Shown here in pieces: positions 6,276 to 56,318 of a DNA stretch of 64,000 nt. Made by a program: the position numbers and the translations under genes. This DNA is from Sphingomonas sp. SCN 67-18. GTDB taxonomy: Bacteria > Pseudomonadota > Alphaproteobacteria > Sphingomonadales > Sphingomonadaceae. The notes under the pieces were generated by a model. It was not told where the DNA came from, did no database searches, and was given only the letters and a program-made list of their open reading frames with translations. How positions within the stretch are numbered: the stretch's first letter is position 1; every line of letters begins with the position of its first letter. Location of the stretch: the NCBI RefSeq assembly GCF_001724715.1, contig NZ_MEFG01000014.1, positions 1 to 64,000 of the forward strand, written 5' to 3'.

Positions 6276-7661
6276 TTATTTCGCCAGATCGGTGAGCAGC
6301 GAACGCCAGTGCGCCAGCGCGGGCGCGATTCCGTTCACCGGAATCCGCTCGTTCAGGCCGTGGGCGAAGCCATCCTCCGCGCGCTGGAACAGCGACGACA
6401 CGCCATAGGTGGGCACGCCCAGCGCGCGGAAATGCAGCCCGTCCGTCGCGCCGGCCGACATGTTGGGCGACACCTGAAGCTTCGGATAGCGGGCGTGGAC
6501 CGCGCGGTTGACCGCCTTCACAACGTCCGGGCGCAGCGGCGACGCGTCGCTGGACGTCGGATCGTCGAGGATCGTCACCGTGGCGCTGTCGTCCGCGATC
6601 ACCCTGACCAGCGTGTCGCGGATCGACGGGATGGTGACGCCGGGGAAGATACGGCAATTGATGTTGGCGGTGGCGCGCTGCGGCAGGGCGTTCTGGGCAT
6701 GGCCGCCATTCACCATGGTCGCGACGCAGGTGGTGCGGACCTGGCCGATATATTCCGGTTCCTGCGAGATGCGGTCCGCCGCAGCGGCATCGGTGGGGTC
6801 GGCGGCGAAGCGGGCCATGGCCGCGCCCAGATCCCCACCCACTTCCCTGGCCGCTGCTTCCAGCGACGCCTTGGTCAGCTCATTGATCTGCGGCAGGAAA
6901 TGATAGGCGTCGAGCCGCGCCAGCGCCTTGCCCAGCCGGTAGATCGCGTTGCTGCCGGTCGGCGCGCTGGAATGGCCGCCGGGATCCGTCACGGTGATCG
7001 CGAAATCGGCATAGGTTTTTTCGCCGGCCTGAAGCCCGTAATAGACCGGCTGGCCGTCGGCGCTGAGCAGCCCGCCGCCGCCGTCGCCGTTCAGCGCCAG
7101 CTCCGCGCCCTTCAGCTGCCCGGCGAGCAGCTTGGTGGTCGCCATATGGGTTTCCTCGTCGCCGGACAGCGCCAGGATCAGCGTGCGGCCGGGCTTGAAG
7201 CCTGCCTTGCGCATCTGCGCCAGCGTCGCGACGATCACGCTGACGTCGAACTTGTTGTCCTCCGACCCGCGCCCGTAAATATAGCCGCCTTCCTCGACCG
7301 CGACGAAGGGATCGCGCGTCCAGTCGGCCGGGTTGGCCTCCACCACGTCCATATGGCCCATCAGCACGATCGGCTTGTCCGCGCGCTTGCCGGGGAATGT
7401 CACCACCAAAGTCGCGGTTTCGCCCACCGGGGTGATGCTGATCTCGCTGTCCGCAAAGCCGCCTGCCTTCAGCACGGAGGCCAGATAGGCGGCATAGGCC
7501 GGCACCTGCCCGCGTCCCTCCACGGTGGGAAAGGCGATCGATTTCTTCAGAATGTCGGTCGCCTGGGCGACATCGGCCGCACTGGGCGCCGCCTGGGCGA
7601 GCGCCGCCGAGGCACTGGCGCCCAGCAGCAGGGCTATGGTCAGTCTGGTCATTGCGCGCAT
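6276..7661 (-). CDS. Secreted M20-family metallopeptidase
   Basis: The 461-residue protein begins with a signal peptide (MRAMTRLTIALLL, then ASAALAQ). M20 zinc ligands are visible: His103/Asp105 in GHMDVVEA, Asp135 in GRGSEDNK and catalytic Glu169/170 in SGDEETH. A central dimerisation domain contains GGHSSAPTGSNAI. The start at 7661 is supported by GGGGAGAAG six bases upstream; the open frame continues upstream without such a site. Family members cleave peptides or N-acylated amino acids; here it acts in the periplasm. The gene is convergent with tetR, with only three bases between the stops. Confidence 0.88.
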   Translation of the reverse strand: MRAMTRLTIALLLGASASAALAQAAPSAADVAQATDILKKSIAFPTVEGRGQVPAYAAYLASVLKAGGFADSEISITPVGETATLVVTFPGKRADKPIVLMGHMDVVEANPADWTRDPFVAVEEGGYIYGRGSEDNKFDVSVIVATLAQMRKAGFKPGRTLILALSGDEETHMATTKLLAGQLKGAELALNGDGGGGLLSADGQPVYYGLQAGEKTYADFAITVTDPGGHSSAPTGSNAIYRLGKALARLDAYHFLPQINELTKASLEAAAREVGGDLGAAMARFAADPTDAAAADRISQEPEYIGQVRTTCVATMVNGGHAQNALPQRATANINCRIFPGVTIPSIRDTLVRVIADDSATVTILDDPTSSDASPLRPDVVKAVNRAVHARYPKLQVSPNMSAGATDGLHFRALGVPTYGVSSLFQRAEDGFAHGLNERIPVNGIAPALAHWRSLLTDLAK

Positions 7662-7779
7662 GGTGATCTTCTCCCCGAATGTCATGGTTTTGCATGCCAT
7701 CGGGGGTGGAAGCAATGTCGCCACGGGCCTTTTCCTGTCGGCTGCGGGGGCAGCGCGCCGGCCGCCCCCGATCACCGGA

Positions 7780-8511
7780 TCAGAGCGGTTCGCCGGTAAC
7801 GGGCGGCGGCGGCGGATCACCGATCAGGCCGCGATAGGCGACACCGGCCACCAGCGCGCCGACGATCGGCGCAACCCAGAACAGCCAGAGCTGCTGCAGC
7901 GCCAGCCCGCCGACCAGAAGCGCCGGCCCGGTGCTGCGCGCCGGATTGACGGAGGTGTTGGTCACCGGAATGCTGATCAGGTGGATGAGGGTGAGCGACA
8001 GGCCGATGGCGATCGGCGCGAAGCCGGAGGGGGCGCGCGTGTCGGTCGACCCCAGGATGACGATCAGGAAACCCAGCGTCAGCACCACCTCGATGATCAG
8101 CGCCGCCGTCATCGAATAGCCGCCCGGCGAATGTTCCCCGAACCCGTTCACCGCCAGCCCGTTGCCGGCCAGCACGAAATCGGGCTGGCCGCTGGCGATC
8201 TGCAGCAGGATGAAGGCGGCGATCACCGCGCCCACCAGCTGCGCGATGATATAGGGGGCGATATCCTTTGCCGGGAAGCGCCCGCCGGACCACAGGCCGA
8301 TCGTCACCGCCGGGTTGAGATGACAGCCGGAAATATGGCCGATCGAATAGGCCATGGTGAGCAGCGTCAGGCCGAAGGCGAGGCTGACCCCCAGAAAACC
8401 GATCCCCAGTTCCGGGAAGGCGGCGGCCAGCACCGCGCTGCCGCAGCCGCCGAACACCAGCCAGAATGTTCCGAATGTTTCGGCGAACAACCGTTTGGAC
8501 AAAGGCACCAT
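7780..8511 (-). CDS. aqpZ: Aquaporin Z-type water channel
   Basis: The 243-residue membrane protein has six hydrophobic helices and both NPA boxes (NPAVT at about 66-70 and NPARS at about 189-193). It has the His and Arg expected at the selectivity filter of water-specific AqpZ (IHLIS and NPAR). The ATG at 8511 has an AAAGGAA ribosome site. An in-frame ATG at 8527-8529 would add six residues. The C-terminus ends in a short proline stretch. It mediates rapid osmotic water flow across the inner membrane. Confidence 0.9.
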
Positions 8512-26867: not shown

Positions 26868-26941
26868 GCGGGTGTAGCTCAATGGCAGAGCAGAAGCTTC
26901 CCAAGCTTACGACGGGGGTTCGATTCCCCTCACCCGCTCCA
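26868..26941 (+). tRNA. tRNA-Gly (anticodon CCC), island attachment gene
   Basis: GCGGGTG at the 5' end pairs with CACCCGC, the anticodon loop TTCCCAA gives anticodon CCC (26900-26902), the T-arm is GGGGGTTCGATTCCCCT, and CCA is encoded. It reads GGG glycine codons. Its 3' 23 bases are repeated at 56296-56318, so the integrating element rebuilt an intact tRNA when it inserted. Confidence 0.95.
26919..26941 (+). repeat. attL: 23-bp direct repeat within tRNA-Gly
   Basis: The last 23 bases of the tRNA (from TTCGATTCCCC to CGCTCCA) recur perfectly at 56296-56318 in the same orientation. Neither flank matches. The T-loop-to-CCA stretch is the usual core site used by P4-type tyrosine integrases, and the integrase gene starts 166 bases downstream. 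Confidence 0.92.
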
Positions 26942-27106
26942 TCTTGCTGCCCATGCGCAGTTGCTGATGGTTGAAAAAACCCTGAAAATCCGCTAGTTTT
27001 TGAGCACTCACTGGCTTTCGGTGATTGCCCATGATCGCGTGTAGCTGAACGATTCGGGGGCATATCCGGGGGCCTTTCCAAAAGCCCTGATTTGCGAGGC
27101 CCCCAA

Positions 27107-28315
27107 ATGGCGCTCACCGACACCGCGATCCGCAAAGCGAAGCCAAAAGATAAACCTTATAAGGTCTCGGATTCGGGCGGCCTTTATCTTTTGGTCAATC
27201 CGATCGGCAGCAAACTTTGGCGCGTTAAATATCGCCTGCATGGAGTGGAGCGTAAACTGGCGCTCGGCGCCTACCCTGCAATTACGCTCGCCGAAGCGCG
27301 AGCGGCAAGGGATGATGCGAAGAAGCAGCTCGCCCATGCCGTCGATCCGAACACTGCCAAGCGGCAGGCACGAATCGTTGCGAGTATCAGCGCAGGCAAC
27401 AGCTTCGCGGCGGTGGCCGAAGAGCTGATAGCGAAGCGCGAGAAGGAAGGTGTCGCACCCGCGACACTCGAAAAGCATCGCTGGCTTTTGCGTTTGCTAG
27501 GCGCAGAGTTCGGCCGTCGGCCGGTGGCCGACATCACGCCTGCGGAGCTACTTCACGAGTTGAAGAAGCAGGAACGGCGCGGGCGGTTAGAGGCAGCGAA
27601 GCAGGCCCGGGGTTTCGCGAGCCGCGTTTTCCGCTACGCCGCCGCTACGGCGCGAGCCGAACGCGATCCCGCACAGATGTTGCTTGGCGCGCTCATCCAA
27701 CCGACCGTAAAGCATTTTGCGGCGATCACTGACCCACTTGAGTTTGGCGCCCTACTCCGTGCGATTGAGGGATATGTGGGTGATCCAGCGGTGATGCATG
27801 CGCTCAAACTGACCCCGCATGTCTTTCAGAGGCCCGGTGAACTGCGGCAGATGGAATGGACAGAAATCGACTTCGCGAAGGCGGTTTGGACTTTGCCCGC
27901 TGCCAAGATGAAAATGCGCCAACAGCATGCGGTGCCACTGTCACGCCAAGCACTCGCGATTCTGGAAAGTATGCGTGGGCTCTCGGGCAACGGCAGATAT
28001 GTGTTCCCGTCGGTACGAACACGGGCGCGGCCGATCAGCGACAACACGATAAACGCAGCGCTTCGTCGTCTTGGCTATTCCAAGGAGCAAATGACGGCCC
28101 ACGGATTCCGGACCTCGGCCTCTTCCCTGCTTAACGAGTCGGGCAACTGGAACCCCGATGCCATCGAACGTGCCCTTGCTCACATGGTCGCGGGCAGTAT
28201 TCGCCGCATATACAATCAGTCGGCCTATTGGGCTGAACGCGTCGAGATGGCGCAGTGGTGGAGTGATTATTTGTGTCAGCTCCGCGATGGAGGCAATGTA
28301 GCCATCCCTCGCTAG
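27107..28315 (+). CDS. P4-type tyrosine recombinase (site-specific integrase)
   Basis: The 402-residue protein begins with the DUF4102 arm-binding domain (MALTDTAIRKAKPKDKPYKV, SDSGGLYLLV) and ends with a catalytic tyrosine recombinase domain. Catalytic residues are visible: Arg in QRPGELRQMEW, HxxR in AHGFRTSASSLL, then His in ALAHMVAGS and Tyr in IRRIYNQSAYW. An in-frame TTG at 27092 lies upstream, but the ATG at 27107 gives the canonical family N-terminus. It integrates and, with an excision factor, excises the element at tRNA-Gly. Confidence 0.93.
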   Translation: MALTDTAIRKAKPKDKPYKVSDSGGLYLLVNPIGSKLWRVKYRLHGVERKLALGAYPAITLAEARAARDDAKKQLAHAVDPNTAKRQARIVASISAGNSFAAVAEELIAKREKEGVAPATLEKHRWLLRLLGAEFGRRPVADITPAELLHELKKQERRGRLEAAKQARGFASRVFRYAAATARAERDPAQMLLGALIQPTVKHFAAITDPLEFGALLRAIEGYVGDPAVMHALKLTPHVFQRPGELRQMEWTEIDFAKAVWTLPAAKMKMRQQHAVPLSRQALAILESMRGLSGNGRYVFPSVRTRARPISDNTINAALRRLGYSKEQMTAHGFRTSASSLLNESGNWNPDAIERALAHMVAGSIRRIYNQSAYWAERVEMAQWWSDYLCQLRDGGNVAIPR

Positions 28316-45543: not shown

Positions 45544-46359
45544 CTATTCGCCCGAAGCTGCCGCAACGGGCGGTTGGGCCTCGCCTGCCTTGTCGATCGA
45601 CCCCAGAATTGCCGCAACGCCCGTCCTGGATTCCGTTGTATCGACACGGTCGCCGCGATCCTTGCGCTCGGAGTAGCGGTCGACGAGTTGATCGGCATGG
45701 CCGCGTGTCAGTACGGTAAAGCGCACCAGCTCCTCGGCAACGTCCACAATCCGGTCATAATAGCTCGACGGCAGCATCCGGCCCGCTTCGTCGAATTCCT
45801 GATAGGCCTTGGCGACGCTCGACTGGTTGGGAATGGTGATCATCCGCATCCAGCGCCCGAGGATGCGCAGCGTATTGACGCTGTTGAAAGACTGCGATCC
45901 GGCCGACACCTGCATCACCGCGAGCGTGCGCCCCTGTGTCGGTCGGAGGCCCTTGTAGGCGAGAGGGAGATGATCGACCTGCGCCTTCATGATACCGGTG
46001 ATCTGGCCGTGCCGTTCCGGACTGCACCAGACCTGGCCTTCGGACCAGATGGAGTGCTGCCTCAGCTCCTCGACCGCCGGATGATCGTCGTCGGCAATCT
46101 GATCGGGCAGCGGCAGGTCGGACGGATCGAAGATGCGCGTCTCGCAGCCGAAGAGCTGGAGCAGGCGAGCGGTCTCCTCGACGACAAGGCGCGAATAGGA
46201 GCGCTCGCGCAGGGATCCGTAGAGCAGCAGGATGCGCGGCGCCGGATCGAGTGGTCCAAGGCCGAGCGCGGGCTGCGCGCGGAGATATTCGCAGCTGAGC
46301 GCCGGGAGGTGGTCGGGATCGGTAAGTGCGCGCAAGCGCGTGAATTGGGGTTCGGTCAT
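45544..46359 (-). CDS. arsH: ArsH, NADPH-dependent FMN oxidoreductase of arsenic resistance
   Basis: The 271-residue flavoprotein has the FMN phosphate loop [14 protein letters not shown] (45-58), [20 protein letters not shown] and the [20 protein letters not shown] region, all typical of ArsH. ArsH oxidises trivalent organoarsenicals and protects against methylarsenite. The C-terminal 30 residues (from [16 protein letters not shown]) are variable. It is the last gene of the arsR-arsC-arsC-acr3-arsH operon, starting three bases after the acr3 stop. Confidence 0.92.
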
Positions 46360-46362
46360 TGG

Positions 46363-47427
46363 TCAGGCCTCCGAAGGCGTGCTTGCGGGGAACCAGTGGC
46401 GTCCGAGGCGGAAAGCAACGCTGACGAGCAGGATGAGAACGGGGACTTCGACGAGCGGGCCGATGACCGCCGCGAAGGCGACCGGCGAGGCAAGGCCGAA
46501 GGCGGCGATTGCGACCGCGATCGCTAGCTCGAAATTATTGCCCGCGGCTGTGAAGGCGACAGCGGTGGTGCGCGGATAATCGGCCTCGATGAGTTTCCCC
46601 ATCCAGAAGCTGATCAGGAACTGCACGACAAAATAGACGGTGAGCGGAATGGCGATCCGGATCACGTCGCCGGGGATGGTCAGAATCTCGCTGCCCTTGA
46701 GACTGAACATCGCGACGATGGTGAAGAGCAGGGCGACGAGCGTTATCGGACCGATCTTCGGCAGGAAGCGCGTCTCGTACCATTCCTCACCCTTTGCGCG
46801 GGCGAGGAAGCGGCGCGTTAGGTAGCCGGCGAGAAAGGGGATGCCGAGATAAATGAGCACGGCCTCGGCGATCGTCCAGAAACTGACGTCTATGACGCTG
46901 CCTTCGAGCCCGAAGAGCGGCGGCAGGATTGTCAGGAAGAACCAGGCGTAGACGCTGAAGAAGAGAATCTGAAAGATCGAGTTGAAGGCGACGAGCGCCG
47001 CGACATATTGATTATCGCCCTTCGCAAGCTGGTTCCAGACGATGACCATCGCGATGCAGCGCGCAAGACCAATCAGGATGAGACCGGTCATATATTCGGG
47101 TTTGTCGGCGAGGAAGATGACCGCGAGCGCGAACATCAGGACCGGACCGATGATCCAGTTCTGGACGAGCGAAATGGCGAGAACGCGCTTGTCCTCGAAC
47201 ACGCGCGGCAGTTCGTCATATCGCACGCGCGCTAGCGGCGGATACATCATGAGGATAAGGCCGATGGCGATCGGGATATTCGTCGATCCGATCGACATCG
47301 CATCGATCGCAGCGGGGAGGCCTTTGAACAGCGATCCCAGGAGGACGCCGAGCGCCATCGCGAGGAAGATCCAGAGCGTCAGATAGCGATCGAGGAACGA
47401 CAGGCGTTCGCGCTTGGTGTCAGTCAT
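46363..47427 (-). CDS. acr3: Arsenite efflux transporter of the ACR3 family
   Basis: The 354-residue membrane protein has ten hydrophobic helices. The conserved Cys of helix 4 lies in [20 protein letters not shown] and the conserved Glu of helix 9 in [14 protein letters not shown]. It expels arsenite using the proton gradient. The start at 47427 has GGAGACGG before it; the frame upstream is not coding. It lies ten bases after the ArsC (glutaredoxin type) stop. Sometimes annotated arsB, but it is not of the ArsB antiporter fold. Confidence 0.94.
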
Positions 47428-47437
47428 GACCGTCTCC

Positions 47438-47869
47438 TCAGGCCTGGACGCGATTGCCGTCGGCATCGACGACCTGTTCGCCGTCTTCCTTGGTGAAGGC
47501 GCCGAGTTGCGGTGCGGGGAGGATGTCGAGCACGGCCTCGGACGGGCGGCAGAGTTTTACCCCGAGCGGTGTCACGACAAGTGGTCGGTTGATGAGGACG
47601 GGATGCTCCATCATCGCATCGATGAGGGAGCTATCGCTGAGACTTTCGTCTCCGAGGCCGAGTTCGGCATAAGGCGTTCCCCTTTCGCGCAGGAGATCGC
47701 GGGGTGTGATCCCGGCGCGTTCGATCATTTGCTCGAGCAGCGCGCGCGATGGCGGCGTCTTCAGATACTCGACGACATGCGGTTCGATCCCCGCATTGCG
47801 GATAAGCGCGAGCGTATTGCGCGACGTGCCGCATTCGGGATTGTGATAGATGATGATGTCGGCCGTCAT
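47438..47869 (-). CDS. arsC: Arsenate reductase, glutaredoxin-coupled (E. coli ArsC type)
   Basis: The 143-residue enzyme has the catalytic Cys12 in [15 protein letters not shown], the arginines that bind arsenate in [16 protein letters not shown], and the usual end. It uses glutathione and glutaredoxin to reduce arsenate to arsenite. Its start overlaps the stop of the other arsC by four bases (ATGA). Confidence 0.93.
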
Positions 47870-48387
47870 GCGCCCGTCTCCCGCCCGCTGGTCGCTCCTT
47901 CGCTGCGGCCGATTTCCTTCAGCTTTCGCTCCATCGCCATCTCGTCGATGGCCTGGTGCGGCAATGCGAGGAAGAGCGAGATGCGGTTCGAGAGGTAATG
48001 GAGCGCATGTTCGAACGCTTCGCGCTGGCCCGGACCTTCGACCGCGGCAGGGTCCTCGATGCCCCAATGCGCATTCATCGGCTTGCCCGGCCAAATGGGG
48101 CAGGTCTCGCCAGCGGCATTGTCGCAGACGGTGAAGATGAAGTCGAGCTTCGGAGCGTCCGGACCGGCAAACTCGTCCCAGCTCTTCGAACGGAGGTCTC
48201 CCGTCTCGAAGCCGAGATCGCCGAGGAGCGCCAGCGCTTGGGGATGAACCTCACCCTTGGGGAAGCTCCCGGCGCTGTAGGCGCGAAAGCGCCCCTTGCC
48301 ATCGCGGTTCAGCAGCGCCTCAGCGAGGATCGAACGCGCGCTGTTGCCGGTGCACAGGAACAGCACATTATAAATCTTGTCGGTCAT
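47866..48387 (-). CDS. arsC: Arsenate reductase, thioredoxin-coupled (low-MW phosphatase fold)
   Basis: The 173-residue protein has the phosphate loop LFLCTGNSARS with nucleophilic Cys and the redox pair in FTVCDNAAGETCPIWPG, equivalent to Cys82/Cys89 of the S. aureus enzyme. It uses thioredoxin. It is unrelated in fold to the next gene's product, so the operon encodes two independent arsenate reductases. A C-terminal helical extension of about 25 residues follows the family core. Confidence 0.93.
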   Translation of the reverse strand: MTDKIYNVLFLCTGNSARSILAEALLNRDGKGRFRAYSAGSFPKGEVHPQALALLGDLGFETGDLRSKSWDEFAGPDAPKLDFIFTVCDNAAGETCPIWPGKPMNAHWGIEDPAAVEGPGQREAFEHALHYLSNRISLFLALPHQAIDEMAMERKLKEIGRSEGATSGRETGA

Positions 48388-48417
48388 GAAATTCTCCTTC
48401 GACGCCGATTGCGTCGA

Positions 48418-48747
48418 TCAGCAGCAGGAAAGTTCGGCGAGGAGCGGCTCGCAAAGCTCGGCGCGGCCCTGGCAGCAGTCCTTTGCAAGGAAGAGCATCA
48501 GCTCGCGGAGCGTGTCGATCTCGGCGCGCTGGATCTGCTGCCGGCCCCGCTTCTCGGACTTGACGAGTCCGGCTCTGGCGAGAACCGCGAGATGGGTCGA
48601 AAAGGTGCTTTGTGTGAGACCTGATGCACGAACTAGCTCGCCGGTCGACAGACCCTCGGGTTCGTGCTGGACGAGCAGACGAAAAGCCTCAAGGCGAGTG
48701 GGATGTGCGAGTGCGGCCAAAGCCGACAGTGCCGAATCGCTGGTCAT
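48418..48747 (-). CDS. arsR: Arsenite-responsive repressor ArsR
   Basis: The 109-residue protein has a winged helix (LSTGELVRASGLTQSTFSTH, LAVLARAGLVKSEKRGRQQI). The arsenite site is C-terminal in the pattern DCCQGRAELC, matching the Cys95/96/102 arrangement of the Acidithiobacillus-type ArsR rather than the E. coli CVC motif. Further Cys residues end the protein (LSCC). The ATG at 48747 is chosen over upstream starts for the family N-terminus (MTSDSALSALAALAHPTRLE). It represses the operon it heads. Confidence 0.93.
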   Translation of the reverse strand: MTSDSALSALAALAHPTRLEAFRLLVQHEPEGLSTGELVRASGLTQSTFSTHLAVLARAGLVKSEKRGRQQIQRAEIDTLRELMLFLAKDCCQGRAELCEPLLAELSCC

Positions 48748-48749
48748 TA

Positions 48750-48765
48750 ATCGGCAATACCCGAT
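48750..48765. promoter_or_regulatory. Candidate ArsR operator
   Basis: ATCGGCAATACCCGAT has 5-bp arms ATCGG and CCGAT around a 6-bp centre and lies three bases before the arsR ATG. Its location over the promoter/leader of the operon is right for autoregulation. Dyads of this size are also common by chance, and no strong -10 or -35 can be assigned nearby. Confidence 0.4.
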
Positions 48766-49365
48766 GCAATTGAAGACGTCAAATCCCATCGGAAAAAAAC
48801 GATGTTTACGTCGAAAAGGAGAGGGAAAAGCCTTCCCCTGACGGCCGGCCCCTTGATCCGTCCGTACCCTTTCCGCAAGGGCTGGCCGCCCCCGCGACGC
48901 CCCGGAAATTGTGCGCGGTTGAAAATGGGCGCTCGCTGCCGGCGGCAGGCGCCGACAGGGATCGCGCGTCTGCCTTGACCGCGCTGCGCACTCGGTCCGT
49001 CCGTCTTGGCGGGGCGGCGGCTAAGCACATCTGCGCACGCACGCCGCACCGCCTGCGGTCGCTCCGAGAGCGGGTCTGTTCTCACGATCCGCCGAAGCGG
49101 CGGATAAGCTCTTGTCGCTGACGATCATGTCGGCGCCGCGTTGAACGCGGCGGCGTTATCGATCGGCCTCCCGTCTGTCGCTGGGTTGGCCGGCTCTCCC
49201 CTCTGGGCGCGTCCCGGCGTCCCGCAAGCCGCTGCGCGGCTCTTCCTCTTCGTTTCAGCCCTTCGGGTGCGGGCCGCCTTCCTGGCCGCGCCCGGCAGGT
49301 CGTTCTCGCCGCCCACCCCGCTCCGCCGGGGGCCTGATGGTTAGGGGGCGGGAATGGAGGATAGC
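48766..49365. other. Non-coding GC-rich region upstream of the DUF2958 gene
   Basis: About 600 bp without a supported gene. Open frames here have arginine/proline-rich sequence and no recognisable start signals. A hairpin, ATCCGCCG/CGGCGGAT (49087-49105), is present, and the stretch ends with GGAGG before the DUF2958 ATG. Comparable long leaders before this module on sphingomonad plasmids are recalled but not verified. It must hold the promoter of DUF2958 and of the divergent ars operon. Confidence 0.5.
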
Positions 49366-50021: not shown

Positions 50022-51593
50022 TCAGACGGCGGCGCTGAGCCGCAGCATCGGCCAGAAGTCGGTGGGTCGGTCGCCCGTCCACGCTTCCGCGATGGTGTCC
50101 CATCCGTTGGTGATCTTGGTGCCCCGGTAGGGGTAGGGCGCTGTTGCGCCCTCCCAGAACCAGCGCAGGCCCGCATTGCCCTCTGTCCATCGCATCGGAC
50201 CATTCGGCTCCCTTTGGAAGAAGCGTCGCTTGACCGTCCGCGTGGTCTTCGGATGCTTTTTGCGCAGCCATTTGTAGATGCGCCACCACAGCCACCAGTC
50301 CAGTTTCCTAAACTCGCGGCGCGCCCGCATGGCGTGACGATAATAGGTTCGCCACCCCAGTATGAGCGGGTTGAGGTCGTCGATGATCGCGGACAAGGAG
50401 AGCCGAAGACTCGGCCTCTTCGTCCGCCCCTTGATCGTGTCGCGCAGACGCTGCAACCTGTCCAACGGGATCAGCAGCTTGCAGACGAACCGCCCGGTTC
50501 GGGTGGATCGCTTCTTCACGATCCGATAGCCGAGGAAGTCGAAGCCTTCTCGGATATCGGTAATCAAGGTCTTCTCGGGCGACAGCTCAAGACGCAGTTC
50601 CTCGCGGAGGAACGTCGCCAGCGCATCTTTCTCGGCTTCTGCCGCTGCCCTCGGCCCGGATACGAGCACGACGAAGTCGTCGGCGTATCGCACCATGTAG
50701 AAGGTTGCCTTCCCGCTGTTGTAATCGCGGGCGCGACGCTGGGTCGCACTGGTCACCGTCTCATAGGGGCCGGGCGTCCACCGTCGATATCGCTCCTCGA
50801 TTGCCGTCAGCATGATGTTCGACAGCAATGGCGATATGATGCCACCCTGCGGCGTTCCCGCGACAGGATGGCGGACGGTGCTCTCGACCATGATCCCCGC
50901 CCGCAGGAAGGCGAGCACGAGCCGCAGGACCTTGCGATCCGTAATGCGACGGCGCACCCGCTCCATGAGCCGGTGGTGGTCGATGTTGTCGAAGCATCCC
51001 TTGATGTCACCTTCGATCACATAGGTGACCCGCGTATCGCCCCAGCGACCGGGATTAACCTGCCGCTGGATTGTCGCGATGGCGTCGTGGGTGCTTCGAC
51101 CACGCCGGAAGCCGAACGAGGTCGGATAGAAGTCCGCCTCGAAGATCGGCTCCAGAACAAGCTTCAAAGCCATCTGTACCAAGCGGTCTTTCAGCGTAGG
51201 GATGCCCAGCGGTCGGAACCGGCCCGGCTTGCCCGGCTTCGGTATCCACCGCTGCCGGACAGGCTGTGGCCTGTAGGTTCCATCCCGAAGCTGCGCCTCG
51301 ATCTCGTCGAGGAAGCGCTCCACCCCGCCGCTACGCTGTTCGACCTGTATCCGCCCAACGCCATCCGTGCCGGGCGTCTTGCTGCCCGCGTTGCGGGCCA
51401 TCCGACGCCAGGCATAATTGAGCGTTCGGCGGTCACTCACCAGATTGAACACGTCCCCGAACCGCTTGTCCGGGGCCGCCTTACTCCACCGATACAGTTT
51501 GCTCTGCATGTCGAGGATAAACTCGGTATTCACCGCGCCGGGCTTCCGCCCACCTCCTGTCGGCTCACTGTATCCGCTGCCCCCCTTCGCCAT
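50022..51593 (-). CDS. ltrA: Group II intron reverse transcriptase/maturase
   Basis: The 523-residue protein has RT motifs RPLGIPTLKDRLVQMALKLV, EGDIKGCFDNIDHHRL, GTPQGGIISPLLSNIML and the active-site VRYADDFVVLV (near 303). A maturase domain follows (LNPLILGWRTYYRHAMRARR, W-rich) and an end resembling the GIIM type. There is no clear HNH endonuclease after it. It promotes splicing and retrohoming of the intron. The start may be later, at about 51509 (MQSKLYRWSKAAPDKR). It appears intact. Confidence 0.92.
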   Translation of the reverse strand: MAKGGSGYSEPTGGGRKPGAVNTEFILDMQSKLYRWSKAAPDKRFGDVFNLVSDRRTLNYAWRRMARNAGSKTPGTDGVGRIQVEQRSGGVERFLDEIEAQLRDGTYRPQPVRQRWIPKPGKPGRFRPLGIPTLKDRLVQMALKLVLEPIFEADFYPTSFGFRRGRSTHDAIATIQRQVNPGRWGDTRVTYVIEGDIKGCFDNIDHHRLMERVRRRITDRKVLRLVLAFLRAGIMVESTVRHPVAGTPQGGIISPLLSNIMLTAIEERYRRWTPGPYETVTSATQRRARDYNSGKATFYMVRYADDFVVLVSGPRAAAEAEKDALATFLREELRLELSPEKTLITDIREGFDFLGYRIVKKRSTRTGRFVCKLLIPLDRLQRLRDTIKGRTKRPSLRLSLSAIIDDLNPLILGWRTYYRHAMRARREFRKLDWWLWWRIYKWLRKKHPKTTRTVKRRFFQREPNGPMRWTEGNAGLRWFWEGATAPYPYRGTKITNGWDTIAEAWTGDRPTDFWPMLRLSAAV

Positions 51594-52174
51594 GTGAACG
51601 GCTTTCCCGCTCTCGGACTACTACGAGGGCTCCGCCCCACTTTGCCGCGATCATCGGTCGCTTCGATCATCTCCGGGGGAGATGCGGCAACGCGGTTCTT
51701 GGGTTCCATTGCTGACCTTTCACCTGCTGTAGGGACCGACTTTACCCCGTGTGGCAACGGGCCTGCGACCACCACAGTCATAGTCGCAGGCTGGCACGTG
51801 CATCGGCACGCACCCCTAGGCCGCACACCCCAAGGCTGGCCCGGCACACCACTGACCCGAAGGTCCAGCCGCCCACTTCCGCGTTGGCGACAGTCATACT
51901 CTAACGAGGCGTCAGACATCGGTTCGATTGCTCTTCCCTTGGCAGGTTCGCTCGCCGGGACACTTCGGATCGCGGAAGTTCACCGGTCCCCGGCTTTGGC
52001 AGGTTCTGCTCATTTATGGCTCGCCGGAAGCACCCGGTTCACCTCACCCGCCCGCTTTTCCCCCCGCGCTGCGTCGCGTTGGGCGCGAGGTCCTCCCCCT
52101 CGCAAGGTCAGTAACAGCTTTTAATGAAACGAATTTCTCCTTTCTTTTCAAACCCAACGCACAGGAAGAAGATC

Positions 52175-53932
52175 ATGAAACTCGATTTTATCCCGATGGA
52201 CAGATTGTCGATTGCGACGACCAACATGCGCGGGAAGGGCAAGGACCCAGACGTGTCGGACCTGCTCCCCAGCATTCGGGCGCGCGGGGTCATCGTTCCG
52301 CTGCTTGTGCGGCCCGGTCCTGTCTCGAGCAACGTCGAGGGATGTACCGAAGGCCGGTTCGAGATCGTCGCGGGGCGTCGGCGCTTCACGGCGGCGACCA
52401 TTGTCGCCAGCGAAAAGGGCGATGCCGAGCCGCTGCCCTGTGCGATCCTCGAAGAAGGCGATGATGCCGCCGCACTCGAAGCCTCGTTGATCGAGAATGT
52501 GGCGCGGCGCGATGCGGACGAGGTGACGCAATGGGTTACCTATACGCGGCTTGTCTGTGAGGGGCGCAGCATCGCCGATATTTCCGATACTTTCGGAATG
52601 CCGGAGGCGATGGTGAAGCGCATCCTCGCGCTCGGCAATCTGTTGCCGCGCATCCGTTCGCTCTATGCAAAGGAGAAGATCAGCGCGGGAACGGTGCGGC
52701 ACCTGACGATGGCGTCCAAATCGCAGCAGCGCGCATGGCTGGCGCTGTTCGACGACGCGGATGCCTATTGCCCGCAGGGTCAGCAGCTCAAGAACTGGCT
52801 GTTCGGCGGCGGCGCGATCAGTGCGGCTCACGCCCTATTCGACGTCGAGGAGAGCGGCCTCGCGATCATTGCCGACCTGTTCGGCGACGAACGCTATTTC
52901 GCGGACAGCGATGCCTTCTGGACGGCGCAGCTTGCCGCCGTTGAGGAGCGGCGGGCGCGCTTTCTGGACGCGGGCTGGAACGAGGTCATTGTCCTGCCCA
53001 AGGGCGATTATTTTCGCGAATGGGAACATCGTCATGGGGCGAAGCGCAAGGGCGGGCGTGTCTATATCGAGGTGCGCGATAGCGGCGAGGTCGATATCCA
53101 CGAGGGCTATGTCACGGCCAAGGAAGCGGCGCGGATCGAAAAGGGCGAGAAGATCGAAGTCGAACCTAAGGCGTCGCGTCCGGAACTGACTTCGCGGATG
53201 CAGACCTACATCGACCTTCATCGCCATGCCGCTGTGCGCGCCGAACTGACCTGCCATCCGGCTGCCGCCCTGCGGTTGATGGTTGCCCACGCCATCGCGG
53301 GGTCACCGCTCTGGAATGTGCGGGTCGAGCCGCAGTCTGCGAAGGATGACGATGTGCGCGAGAGCATTGAAGTCAGCAAGGCCGAGGCAGTGTTCGACGA
53401 GAAGCGGCGCGCGGTACTGGCGCTGCTCGACTTTGATGCCGAGGAACCGACGGTGACTGGGGGCAATTCTATATCGCTCGCGGACCTGTTCCAGCGGCTG
53501 CTTGACTTGCCCGACCGTGCGGTGATGGACGTGATCGCTATCGTCATGGGCGAGACGCTGTTCGCCGGGAGCGCGGCCATCGAGGCAGTGGGCCTCCATA
53601 TCGGGATCAACATGACGGCATGGTGGAGCGCCGACGACGCTTTCTTCGCCGGTATTCGTGACAAGGAGGTGCTGACCGCACTGGTCGCCGAGGTGGGCGG
53701 AGCCGAGGTTGCCGCCGCCAATGCCGAGGAGAAAGGCGCGACCTTGAAGGCGATCGTTCGCGATCATCTGGACGGCAGCAACGGCCGCGCCAAGGTCGAA
53801 GGGTGGGTGCCGAAGTGGATGGCCTTCCCAGCCGCCGCCTACACCGAGCGCGGTGGGGTCGGTGCCGTGATCGCGCGCAGCGAAGCAGCCTCACATGACA
53901 CCGAGGAAGAACCGCAGCGCAAAGCCGCGTAA
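52175..53932 (+). CDS. ParB/Srx-domain (plasmid-type) protein
   Basis: The 585-residue protein has a ParB N-terminal domain (DRLSIATTNMRGKGKDPDVS; EIVAGRRRFTAATIV; ASLIENVARRDADEVTQW) and a KorB-like helix-turn-helix region (SIADISDTFGMPEAMVKRIL). A long C-terminal part follows, containing KIEVEPKASRPELTSRMQTY. Its length exceeds classical ParB. Found on sphingomonad plasmids and elements without a ParA beside it, as here. AGGAAG precedes the ATG at 52175. It is probably not a partition protein but an NTPase or nuclease-like regulator of this module; the role is unknown. Confidence 0.85.
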   Translation: MKLDFIPMDRLSIATTNMRGKGKDPDVSDLLPSIRARGVIVPLLVRPGPVSSNVEGCTEGRFEIVAGRRRFTAATIVASEKGDAEPLPCAILEEGDDAAALEASLIENVARRDADEVTQWVTYTRLVCEGRSIADISDTFGMPEAMVKRILALGNLLPRIRSLYAKEKISAGTVRHLTMASKSQQRAWLALFDDADAYCPQGQQLKNWLFGGGAISAAHALFDVEESGLAIIADLFGDERYFADSDAFWTAQLAAVEERRARFLDAGWNEVIVLPKGDYFREWEHRHGAKRKGGRVYIEVRDSGEVDIHEGYVTAKEAARIEKGEKIEVEPKASRPELTSRMQTYIDLHRHAAVRAELTCHPAAALRLMVAHAIAGSPLWNVRVEPQSAKDDDVRESIEVSKAEAVFDEKRRAVLALLDFDAEEPTVTGGNSISLADLFQRLLDLPDRAVMDVIAIVMGETLFAGSAAIEAVGLHIGINMTAWWSADDAFFAGIRDKEVLTALVAEVGGAEVAAANAEEKGATLKAIVRDHLDGSNGRAKVEGWVPKWMAFPAAAYTERGGVGAVIARSEAASHDTEEEPQRKAA

Positions 53933-54628: not shown

Positions 54629-55462
54629 TTAAAAGGCGAGTTCGGTTTGCTTCATTGAGCCGAAAGCCTCACGCGGGGGATAGACGAGACTTACAATCAG
54701 CCACTGATCTGGGAAGCGGTGGATGGTGCCCATAAGAAACATCAAATCCGCAGCGGGAAGCTTCTGCTCGAGTTTTTCGCGAAACGGCGCTTCCCAGTTA
54801 TCTCCATGCTGTTGGCGACAGTTCCAAAATAGCGCGCCGGCTTCCCAATCGGCTATTTTATGTCGGTGGGTATGAACCTCGCCATCAACTTCGCATTCGT
54901 AGCGGTAGTGGAACGCGAAAGGCAATTTGCGCAGCGTCCGTATGGCGCCGGCATCTTCATCGTCGAACAGGCCACCCTGCTGCTGACGCTGCACAAGCTT
55001 CTTAAGTTCATCGGCGGTCCAGTCAGGACTGTCGACCGGCGTGATGTCTAACCCCGCTATCTTGCTCGGCCTAACAAGCCCCAACGTCGTCTCTTCCGAT
55101 TCGCGCGACTGATCGAGCGGAACGAAACCTGAGAAAACCCGGAGCTTGTTCAGTTCCCTCCGTCGCGCCTCCCAATTTCGTTTCGGCGAGAGAGGTGGAC
55201 CCTCTAGCTGAATAGTATCGACATAGATTTTGTGGCTCTCGGGACGCCTATCGTCATTCGCCCTGTATATCTGCGCTGAGATCCATTGCCATTTCTTGAA
55301 CTGCTGACCATCACGGATCAAGCGAAAGGGAACAGGAAAAAGCCTGATCAGCGATCCGTTTTCAAGCATTCCGGCCACGCAGGACGTCTCGGTATGCTTC
55401 TCGCTAGGAGACGGGTAAGTCTTGCATAAAATCAGAATTCGTTCGCGTCGCGATCCAGCCAC
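54629..55462 (-). CDS. Unknown protein paired with DUF488
   Basis: The 277-residue protein is not recognised. It begins with RILILCKTYPSPSEKHTETS, then CVAGMLENGSLIRLFPVPFR, a short beta-rich region. The middle has SPDWTADELKKLVQRQQQGG and LFDDEDAGAIRTLRKLPFAF. Near residues 190-215 a His-rich segment with acidic residues (CEVDGEVHTHRHKIADWEAG) may bind metal. It follows the DUF488 gene 42 bases downstream in the same direction. Conserved pairs like this are often defence or nucleotide-salvage modules; this is inference. Confidence 0.7.
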   Translation of the reverse strand: MAGSRRERILILCKTYPSPSEKHTETSCVAGMLENGSLIRLFPVPFRLIRDGQQFKKWQWISAQIYRANDDRRPESHKIYVDTIQLEGPPLSPKRNWEARRRELNKLRVFSGFVPLDQSRESEETTLGLVRPSKIAGLDITPVDSPDWTADELKKLVQRQQQGGLFDDEDAGAIRTLRKLPFAFHYRYECEVDGEVHTHRHKIADWEAGALFWNCRQQHGDNWEAPFREKLEQKLPAADLMFLMGTIHRFPDQWLIVSLVYPPREAFGSMKQTELAF

Positions 55463-55504
55463 ACGATGCCTCCCCGGATACTTTTATCTTCCGGGTTGAT
55501 AGCA

Positions 55505-56014
55505 TCATATCTGAGCAGGTGCCACGCCAACTGGTAGGGCATCTTTGGAGCTGGTACCATTCGAGGCCTTGTTGACGCCGAGATTCTGTATCTTGAAATC
55601 TGCCGCTTTTGACATCTCGTTTGCGACGATCGTGCGATGGCATTCTTTTGGGCTGCGTTCAAAGCATAGCAGGACGGAAATATCGGTCTGCGCAACTTGA
55701 ACGGCTTGCCGGAGCGCGGACTGGCTTTCTTCGGACGCTAGATGAGCGCCGTAGATTTCCAGGAACGCCATATAGTCGCCCCGCCGCATTGCTTCGCGTC
55801 CTTCCTTTGGGTCGCCCAATGACTTCAGGTGCAAATAGGCGATGCCCTCTTCCTCCAAGGCAGCCGACAGTGAGCCTTTCGAGAAGCCGGGCTTTCGCGA
55901 AACCGGAACATCGCGGATATCGATTACCCTTTCGACGCCGCACTCGCGGAGGGTGCTCAAAAACTGCGAGATTTCCGCGCCTTCGTAGCCAATAGTATAG
56001 AGAGTGCGGCTCAT
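55505..56014 (-). CDS. DUF488-domain protein
   Basis: The 169-residue protein has the DUF488 signature: MSRTLYTIGYEGAEISQFLS, ERVIDIRDVPVSRKPGFSKG, YLHLKSLGDPKEGREAMRR and LLCFERSPKECHRTIVANEM (Cys117, Cys125, His126, Arg127). The family is of unknown biochemical role with a conserved Cys-His-Arg triad that suggests catalysis or metal binding. AGGAGA lies before the ATG pair at 56012-56017. It forms a two-gene unit with the downstream unknown gene at the right end of the element. Confidence 0.85.
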   Translation of the reverse strand: MSRTLYTIGYEGAEISQFLSTLRECGVERVIDIRDVPVSRKPGFSKGSLSAALEEEGIAYLHLKSLGDPKEGREAMRRGDYMAFLEIYGAHLASEESQSALRQAVQVAQTDISVLLCFERSPKECHRTIVANEMSKAADFKIQNLGVNKASNGTSSKDALPVGVAPAQI

Positions 56015-56295
56015 CATGTCTCCTTGCCAGAGGCCCGATAAAGGATAATCGAGTCCATAGTGAGGCACATTCTACCTACCTTGATGATCTTGAAAAAGGA
56101 GCGAGCGGATTGATGCATCCAAACGAACGCTCGATCTCCCAAGACTCGGAGGATAAGAGTAGGTGGGGCCCGCAAGCGTCACATTCGGAATCGAACCTGC
56201 GGACTTTTAAGTCCAGTACTGACGGGGGCTTTTCAGGGGGCCCCCAAATCAGCATCGGGCTGAATCACTAGGATTCCCTTCGGTTTTGGCGATTA

Positions 56296-56318
56296 TTCGA
56301 TTCCCCTCACCCGCTCCA
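56296..56318 (+). repeat. attR: second copy of the 23-bp tRNA-Gly core
   Basis: The stretch matches the tRNA-Gly 3' end (26919-26941) base for base in the same orientation. Flanks differ on both sides. It marks the right boundary of the element; no second tRNA is present. Confidence 0.92.

Follow-up and report, generated by a model that had tools for sequence, protein, structure and literature searches.

DUF488 proteins, which presumably belong with the rhodaneses and phosphatases (PTPs), have reportedly been placed with DUF4326 and RapZ-C by one research group, which predicted a role in DNA-end processing. Burroughs and Aravind are said to have treated DUF488-N3a proteins encoded beside DuOB as predicted conflict systems in 2023; DuOB is a Pfam family (PF22557) that we take to be a dual-OB domain. 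DUF4326, as described in PMC9503650, is compared here along with the rhodanese/PTP superfamily. The other arrangement close to the locus analyzed here is PDC-M19, a candidate system in PADLOC-DB. The prefix is expanded as “phage defence candidate” in a section of PMC11514479, and part of an archaeal survey states that PDC candidates came from guilt-by-embedding, with validation pending for most of them (PMC12988326). A literature search for the name PDC-M19 returned no paper, and no study of the pair's activity was found; PDC-M19 seems to be catalogued yet uncharacterized.

Position of the gene pair and its match to PDC-M19

The window, i.e., the whole 64,000-nucleotide stretch of Sphingomonas DNA that was analyzed, carries the pair at the right end of an integrated element. 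The features of the locus are as follows.

55505-56014 including the stop codon (55508-56014 coding), minus strand: gene A, a DUF488 (DUF488-N3a) protein of 169 aa (Pfam, PADLOC-DB, alignment)
54629-55462 including the stop codon (54632-55462 coding), minus strand: gene B, a predicted dual-OB protein of 277 aa with a GTG start, PDC-M19B / phrog_25907, DuOB-like (PADLOC-DB, model)
56019-56025, minus strand: AAGGAGA, ribosome-binding-site-like, before gene A (read from the sequence)
55469-55475, minus strand: GGGGAGG, ribosome-binding-site-like, before the GTG of gene B (read from the sequence)
26919-26941, plus strand: attL, the 3' end of tRNA-Gly(CCC) (exact 23-bp repeat)
56296-56318, plus strand: attR, a 23-bp copy of the tRNA-Gly 3' end and the right end of the element (exact repeat)
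27092-28315, plus strand: integrase-like ORF adjoining attL (by eye, from its first residues and position)

Genes A and B are consecutive on the same strand, with A before B and 42 bp between them. Gene A starts at the ATG at 56014 (alternative, 56017), with AAGGAGA just upstream, and gene B starts at the GTG at 55462, with GGGGAGG 6 bases upstream. The element is 29.4 kb long, lies in tRNA-Gly, and is bounded by the exact 23-bp attL/attR repeat; 281 bases separate gene A from attR, i.e., the pair lies about 280 bp inside the element. The preliminary description of this DNA had placed a two-gene module beside attR at the end of an element, and both genes and the repeat were indeed found there. 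When the joined flanks were used as a query for the empty site, 91 of 98 genomes matched, the source genome included; the matches listed outside the source genome comprised the tRNA and short flanks only and ended by base 216 of 400, and no intact empty site was seen among them.

Between gene A and attR, a second tRNA-like fragment was noticed by eye on the minus strand (window 56150-56250, GGACTTAAAAGTCC...GGTTCGATTCC), and this may be an older attachment-site scar. The element also carries arsenic-type genes (by eye) and an ORF for a group II intron-type reverse transcriptase (50022-51593, by eye), which has an ars-like cluster (45544-48789, by eye) on one side and, on the other, a gene (52124-53932) whose ParB-like product matches PF02195 in Pfam.

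In PADLOC-DB, protein A matched PDC-M19A (PDLC04505, E = 5.4e-34, profile positions 149-290 of 294) and protein B matched PDC-M19B (PDLC04508, E = 1.3e-57, residues 6-266). These sequence matches and the adjacency of the genes place the pair in the candidate system PDC-M19, which it resembles in both components, standing side by side. It differs in arrangement: in the window, both genes share a strand with A first, whereas most pairs of its nearest large group converge. The pair had been put forward as possibly undescribed; because both proteins match PDC-M19 components, this proposal falls, and the parallel arrangement of DUF488 with DuOB exists as well.

Pairing, gene order, and genomic surroundings

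Relatives of B were collected by searches of genome contigs (best 80 of 215 confirmed) and viral contigs (25, 1, 4, 33, and 0 loci), together with genome samples and 13 opened plasmid or phage regions. This yielded 185 sources with B, of which the window is one, and dropping 12 identical B proteins left 173 distinct ones. DUF488 was encoded within 500 bp of B for 167 of these 173 proteins (in one case incomplete where the contig ends). The order was convergent in 104 loci, A before B in 61, and B before A in 1; two of the remaining loci were cut by a contig end, and four had no DUF488 within 500 bp (L028, L064, L174, and L015). The 3.2-Mb source genome contains three DUF488 matches, i.e., two besides gene A, and one B. 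The pairing of A and B is far beyond chance, so the two genes are anything but rarely adjacent in other genomes, and the conserved co-occurrence on which the preliminary description depended is borne out. Since convergent, A-before-B, and B-before-A orders all occur, the link has survived rearrangement.

Two kinds of disturbed locus were also seen. In Novosphingobium nitrogenifigens (L028), a transposase-like ORF (6551-7885, by eye) stands between A and B and DUF488 is 1575 bp away, which is a natural interruption of the pair. A broken copy of B with two internal stops still lies beside an intact DUF488 ORF in L183 and L184 (G536).

The 3' ends of convergent A and B genes overlapped by exactly 44 bp in 61 of 107 pairs (e.g., L013:6001-7255), and the extremes were a gap of 21 bp and an overlap of 62 bp. 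This count was made without six named duplicates, pairs more than 500 bp apart, and B matches of fewer than 200 residues, and some duplicates remained in it. The 44-bp overlap is a fixed antisense overlap of convergent genes. On a quickly built tree of 117 B rows, six changes of orientation were required, three of them forced by well supported branches; these counts are rough, because in the AU test a constrained B tree beat the free tree by 49 log units.

Window A shares 40-60% identity with its counterparts in the same-strand phage subfamily and 29-51% with most convergent A proteins, and window B shares 48-67% with the convergent group (outliers, 37 and 28) and 26-30% with the same-strand subfamily. 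In the A tree, the sphingomonad A proteins grouped with the same-strand ones. A partner swap is nevertheless unsupported, as AU tests, from which thirteen divergent rows were left out, accepted alternative splits: on the A data, the B-like split was not rejected (p = 0.284) and keeping the convergent and sphingomonad rows together scored above the free tree (p = 0.672), and the B data were compatible with the A split (p = 0.934).

B was found in 12 of 385 class-level, 6 of 98 close-relative, and 10 of 398 phylum-level genomes, i.e., in 2.5-6% of the genomes in these partly overlapping samples, each of which included the source genome. Its distribution is sporadic. Among 72,556 plasmid records, 23 carried B, 11 of which were typed conjugative; among 50,697 phage records there were 7, all with one Gordonia host strain and the same identity. 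In phage Eviarto, an immunity repressor is followed by B, the convergent neighbor of which matches the A profile, and an integrase lies three genes further. A viral scan with a cyanobacterial B returned no relative. In the viral loci L136-L168, which have same-strand pairs, a ParB/DNA-methylase-like family was seen upstream in 22 loci and a terminase-like family downstream in 12 (both by eye).

The surroundings of 79 genome-contig loci were scanned with PADLOC models at E <= 1e-10, using a simple GC-based gene caller. The nearest genes on each side (147 of 149 scanned) matched 123 families and those lying over 5 kb away (122 of 124 scanned) matched 132, as against 10 for a control of 147 of 304 genes in 20 arbitrary chromosomal stretches from other, mostly alphaproteobacterial genomes; this ratio overstates the number of genes, because families were counted and one helicase matches many GajB models. 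Among the 25 families listed for each set, GajB-type and NERD-UvrD helicases, mads, AriA, and PDC-S18 were near the pair, and type I, IIG, and IV restriction enzymes, GajB, reverse-transcriptase, and TIR models were far from it. The near and far sets are alike, so it is whole regions, beyond the immediate neighbors, that are rich in defense-type genes. The expectation that defense genes would lie nearby therefore holds around the relatives, but none was found beside the pair in the window element.

Conserved residues and predicted folds

Protein A matches Pfam DUF488 (PF04343) at E = 5.6e-30, with 104.9 bits against a gathering cut-off of 22.2, and DUF488-N3a (PF22751) with 27.1 bits, just over the gathering cut-off of 27; DUF488-N3a was matched at E <= 0.1 by 119 of 120 aligned A proteins. 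The Cys-His-Arg motif pointed out previously corresponds to C125-H126-R127. Its conservation is matched by that of C117 and E119: each of these five residues occurs in 181 of 182 aligned rows (duplicates kept in), the remaining row being gapped there. A appears to keep the active-site residues of the “active” subclade of DUF488-N3a, and we infer that these residues define it. The invariant cysteines fit the presumed placement of DUF488 with rhodaneses and phosphatases.

AlphaFold2 models of A (pLDDT 88.4, pTM 0.81) and B (pLDDT 86.3, pTM 0.85) were built on alignments of the window protein with the loci gathered in this analysis. For A, a sequence search for related solved structures gave none at E <= 0.001, and a Foldseek search of the PDB gave no match under E 0.001; in the Foldseek ranking (all E > 0.001), SonM-type and tetrapyrrole methylases came first and SsoPTP 29th. 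By VIA-align, CobF and CbiL were top among the matches listed (Z 9.4, rmsd above 6), laforin had Z 9.0 (2.7 Å over 114), SonM had Z 8.7, SsoPTP had Z 8.6 (2.6 Å over 110), and many diphthine synthase entries had Z 8.5-8.6. As modeled, A is a Rossmann-like protein that matches both phosphatases and methylases. It may resemble the rhodanese/PTP proteins (laforin, SsoPTP) in its predicted fold, and it shares with them a conserved Cys ending a core strand. It differs from them in having CxE...CHR rather than CX5R, i.e., Cys117-x9-Arg127 plus Cys125-His-Arg in place of the PTP P-loop spacing, and methylase-type folds match it equally well or better.

One DUF488 subfamily has a conserved N-terminal domain of ~160 aa (RQKLLL...FVPYKFGCFSFQSYADRRKL). 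Long A variants with an N-terminal domain lie at the following positions.

L003:2311-3222: long A variant
L132:1160-2113: long A variant
L134:1975-3042: long A variant
L173:2314-3291: long A variant

A Pfam search with this N-terminal domain gave no convincing match. A comparison with the Panacea antitoxin domain, which used five of six fetched Panacea loci, gave no support for that identity (hhalign E 0.09, probability 0.6%). CTP binding is described in one paper for a ParB-fold DUF488-HTH fusion.

Searches of Pfam and NCBIfam gave no family for window B, which matched phrog_25907 (E = 8.6e-44), a family for which PHROG gives no function; a sequence comparison with proteins of solved structure gave nothing convincing. 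The model of B consists of two OB folds. Foldseek returned 11 PDB matches at E <= 0.001, with low TM-scores (0.22-0.34): ten were titled RPA, CST, telomere-end-binding protein, or Teb1, and the eleventh was chain N of a nucleotide-excision-repair complex. By VIA-align, the first domain reached a best Z of 7.4 (2.8 Å over 87 residues), in a list that also includes some unrelated barrel proteins, and residues 106-265 reached Z 6.4-6.6 with RMI1, Teb1 OB-C, and RPA; according to the tool, Z values at this level (<8) perhaps reflect only a common arrangement. Because the Z values are below 8 and the TM-scores are low, we claim for B a tandem OB fold and no specific homology, i.e., B is a predicted tandem (dual) OB-fold protein with fold-level similarity only. 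It would share tandem OB folds with RPA, CST, and telomere-end-binding proteins in predicted structure, but it has no detectable sequence similarity to them.

In 116 sequences, the invariant residues of B are P17, E25, C28, A30, R40, P43, D71, R73, E75, S76, D205, W206, E207, and G245, and all of these except E25 and A30 are also invariant in a 16-sequence set that includes Sulfolobus and Gordonia. The His-rich acidic segment noted in the preliminary description is visible (HTHRHK, LFDDED) but is not among the invariant residues; what is invariant near the His-rich stretch in the 116 relatives is Asp205-Trp206-Glu207.

A scan for DuOB gave no hit among 190 genomes from the window's class and hits in 10 of 274 from another class. 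Eleven DuOB loci were fetched from 10 genomes, and nine of them (eight genomes) have a DUF488 ORF, L188 and L194 having none. Two consecutive DUF488 ORFs occur in four of the loci (L185, L186, L187, and L189), and in L185 one is over and the other under the DUF488-N3a cut-off. Window B gave no match to DuOB at E <= 1, the gathering cut-off being 27 bits. DuOB weakly matched 6 of 116 B relatives (best, 5e-4), and PIG-X, an unrelated family, weakly matched 9 (best, 0.0012); the Sulfolobus and Gordonia B proteins matched DuOB at 0.002 and 0.0019, respectively, and divergent relatives reached 18.7 of the 27 bits. In hhalign, the first OB regions of B and DuOB were in register (E 0.0078, probability 5%). 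Formal membership in DuOB was rejected given the score under the cut-off, this hhalign probability, and the larger number of relatives matched by PIG-X; on sequence grounds, we read B as a DuOB-like protein outside the Pfam family. The window pair is like the DUF488-N3a/DuOB pairs in that A is over the DUF488-N3a cut-off, B is a predicted dual-OB protein, and DUF488 neighbors DuOB. It differs in that B is under the DuOB cut-off and that it has one DUF488 gene where four DuOB loci have two.

On three Sulfolobales plasmids, two of which are nearly identical at this gene, B is followed by a gene for a protein of 163-168 aa instead of DUF488. Positions of this gene are as follows.

L015:6852-7355: nuclease-like partner of B, Sulfolobales (by eye)
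L196:4864-5352: nuclease-like partner of B, Sulfolobales (by eye)

The protein has two versions with IEID...FExK in common, a pattern that recalls PD-(D/E)XK nucleases when judged by eye, and a Pfam search gave nothing convincing for this partner. It was found in 3 of the 72,556 plasmid records, namely these three B-carrying plasmids. If it is a nuclease, the dual-OB protein B would be the constant part and the catalytic part would vary.

Possible roles of the pair

Our preferred reading, which we hold tentatively and at slightly less than an even chance, is a defense module of mobile elements: B would bind ssDNA or DNA ends and deliver A to them for processing. The pair would act as a PDC-M19 module against phages or competing elements while being carried on mobile elements itself. 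B, with its two predicted OB folds, would bind ssDNA or DNA ends exposed in infection or element transfer and would recruit or activate A, a putative cysteine-dependent transferase or phosphatase, which in turn would process or modify the bound nucleic-acid end by phosphate or sulfur transfer via Cys117 or Cys125. Support computed here comes from the pairing, the predicted folds, the invariant residues, the carriage on elements, and the defense-gene-rich surroundings. From these we infer ssDNA binding, an A-B interaction, the chemistry, and an anti-phage effect, and a defense role is likelier than the proposed chemistry. The nucleic-acid function suggested in the preliminary description is plausible on the models. 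Against the preferred reading, the structural matches of B are at the level of the fold, the best predicted-fold matches of A are not phosphatases, and A has no CX5R motif. In the window element, the pair is accompanied by arsenic-type genes (by eye), with no defense genes found beside it. In one phage subfamily, moreover, the neighbors of the pair are ParB/methylase-like and terminase-like (by eye), a setting that can also house functions of the phage itself.

It is unlikely, in our judgment, that the pair serves the element instead, with B coating ssDNA in transfer or replication and A trimming or capping DNA ends, thereby helping establishment or shielding the element from host nucleases (anti-defense or repair). 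Such a role would suit the carriage of the pair by plasmids (11 of 23 records conjugative), phage contigs, and an integrated element, the predicted RPA/CST-like folds of B, and the phage subfamily with ParB/methylase-like and terminase-like neighbors (by eye). However, the pair also occurs in chromosomal regions rich in defense-type genes, although these regions may be elements themselves. Quite improbable is a toxin-antitoxin or addiction module, in which A would modify a host nucleic acid or nucleotide and B would restrain A. Two small linked genes on mobile elements, 42 bp apart in the window, resemble such a module, but 104 of the 166 full pairs are convergent, so A and B are transcribed separately, and a search for the Panacea domain at the N-terminal end of the long A variants did not find it. 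B also has two predicted OB folds, a structure that, to our knowledge, is unlike the usual antitoxins. A housekeeping role in the metabolism of nucleotides or sulfur, unconnected with conflict, is highly improbable: DUF488 does occur away from B, as in the two other matches in the source genome with its single B, but the sporadic distribution of B, in just 12 of 385, 6 of 98, and 10 of 398 genomes, argues against it, and in this respect too the preliminary proposal stands.

The defense reading may extend further, to a class of immune modules with a fixed RPA/CST-like dual-OB sensor for the ssDNA or DNA ends of incoming elements and a replaceable effector, in which PDC-M19 would form one branch and the DUF488-DuOB pairs another, across bacteria and archaea; we consider this doubtful, though worth stating. 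The effector would usually be a DUF488 cysteine enzyme with a new DNA-end chemistry, and would be nuclease-like on the Sulfolobales plasmids. To the catalogued PDC-M19, this analysis adds the predicted dual-OB assignment, the invariant residues, the parallel with DuOB, the overlap of the convergent genes, and the nuclease-like replacement in archaea, and it provides a concrete hypothesis for the system, in which DNA-end sensing would be coupled to a cysteine enzyme.
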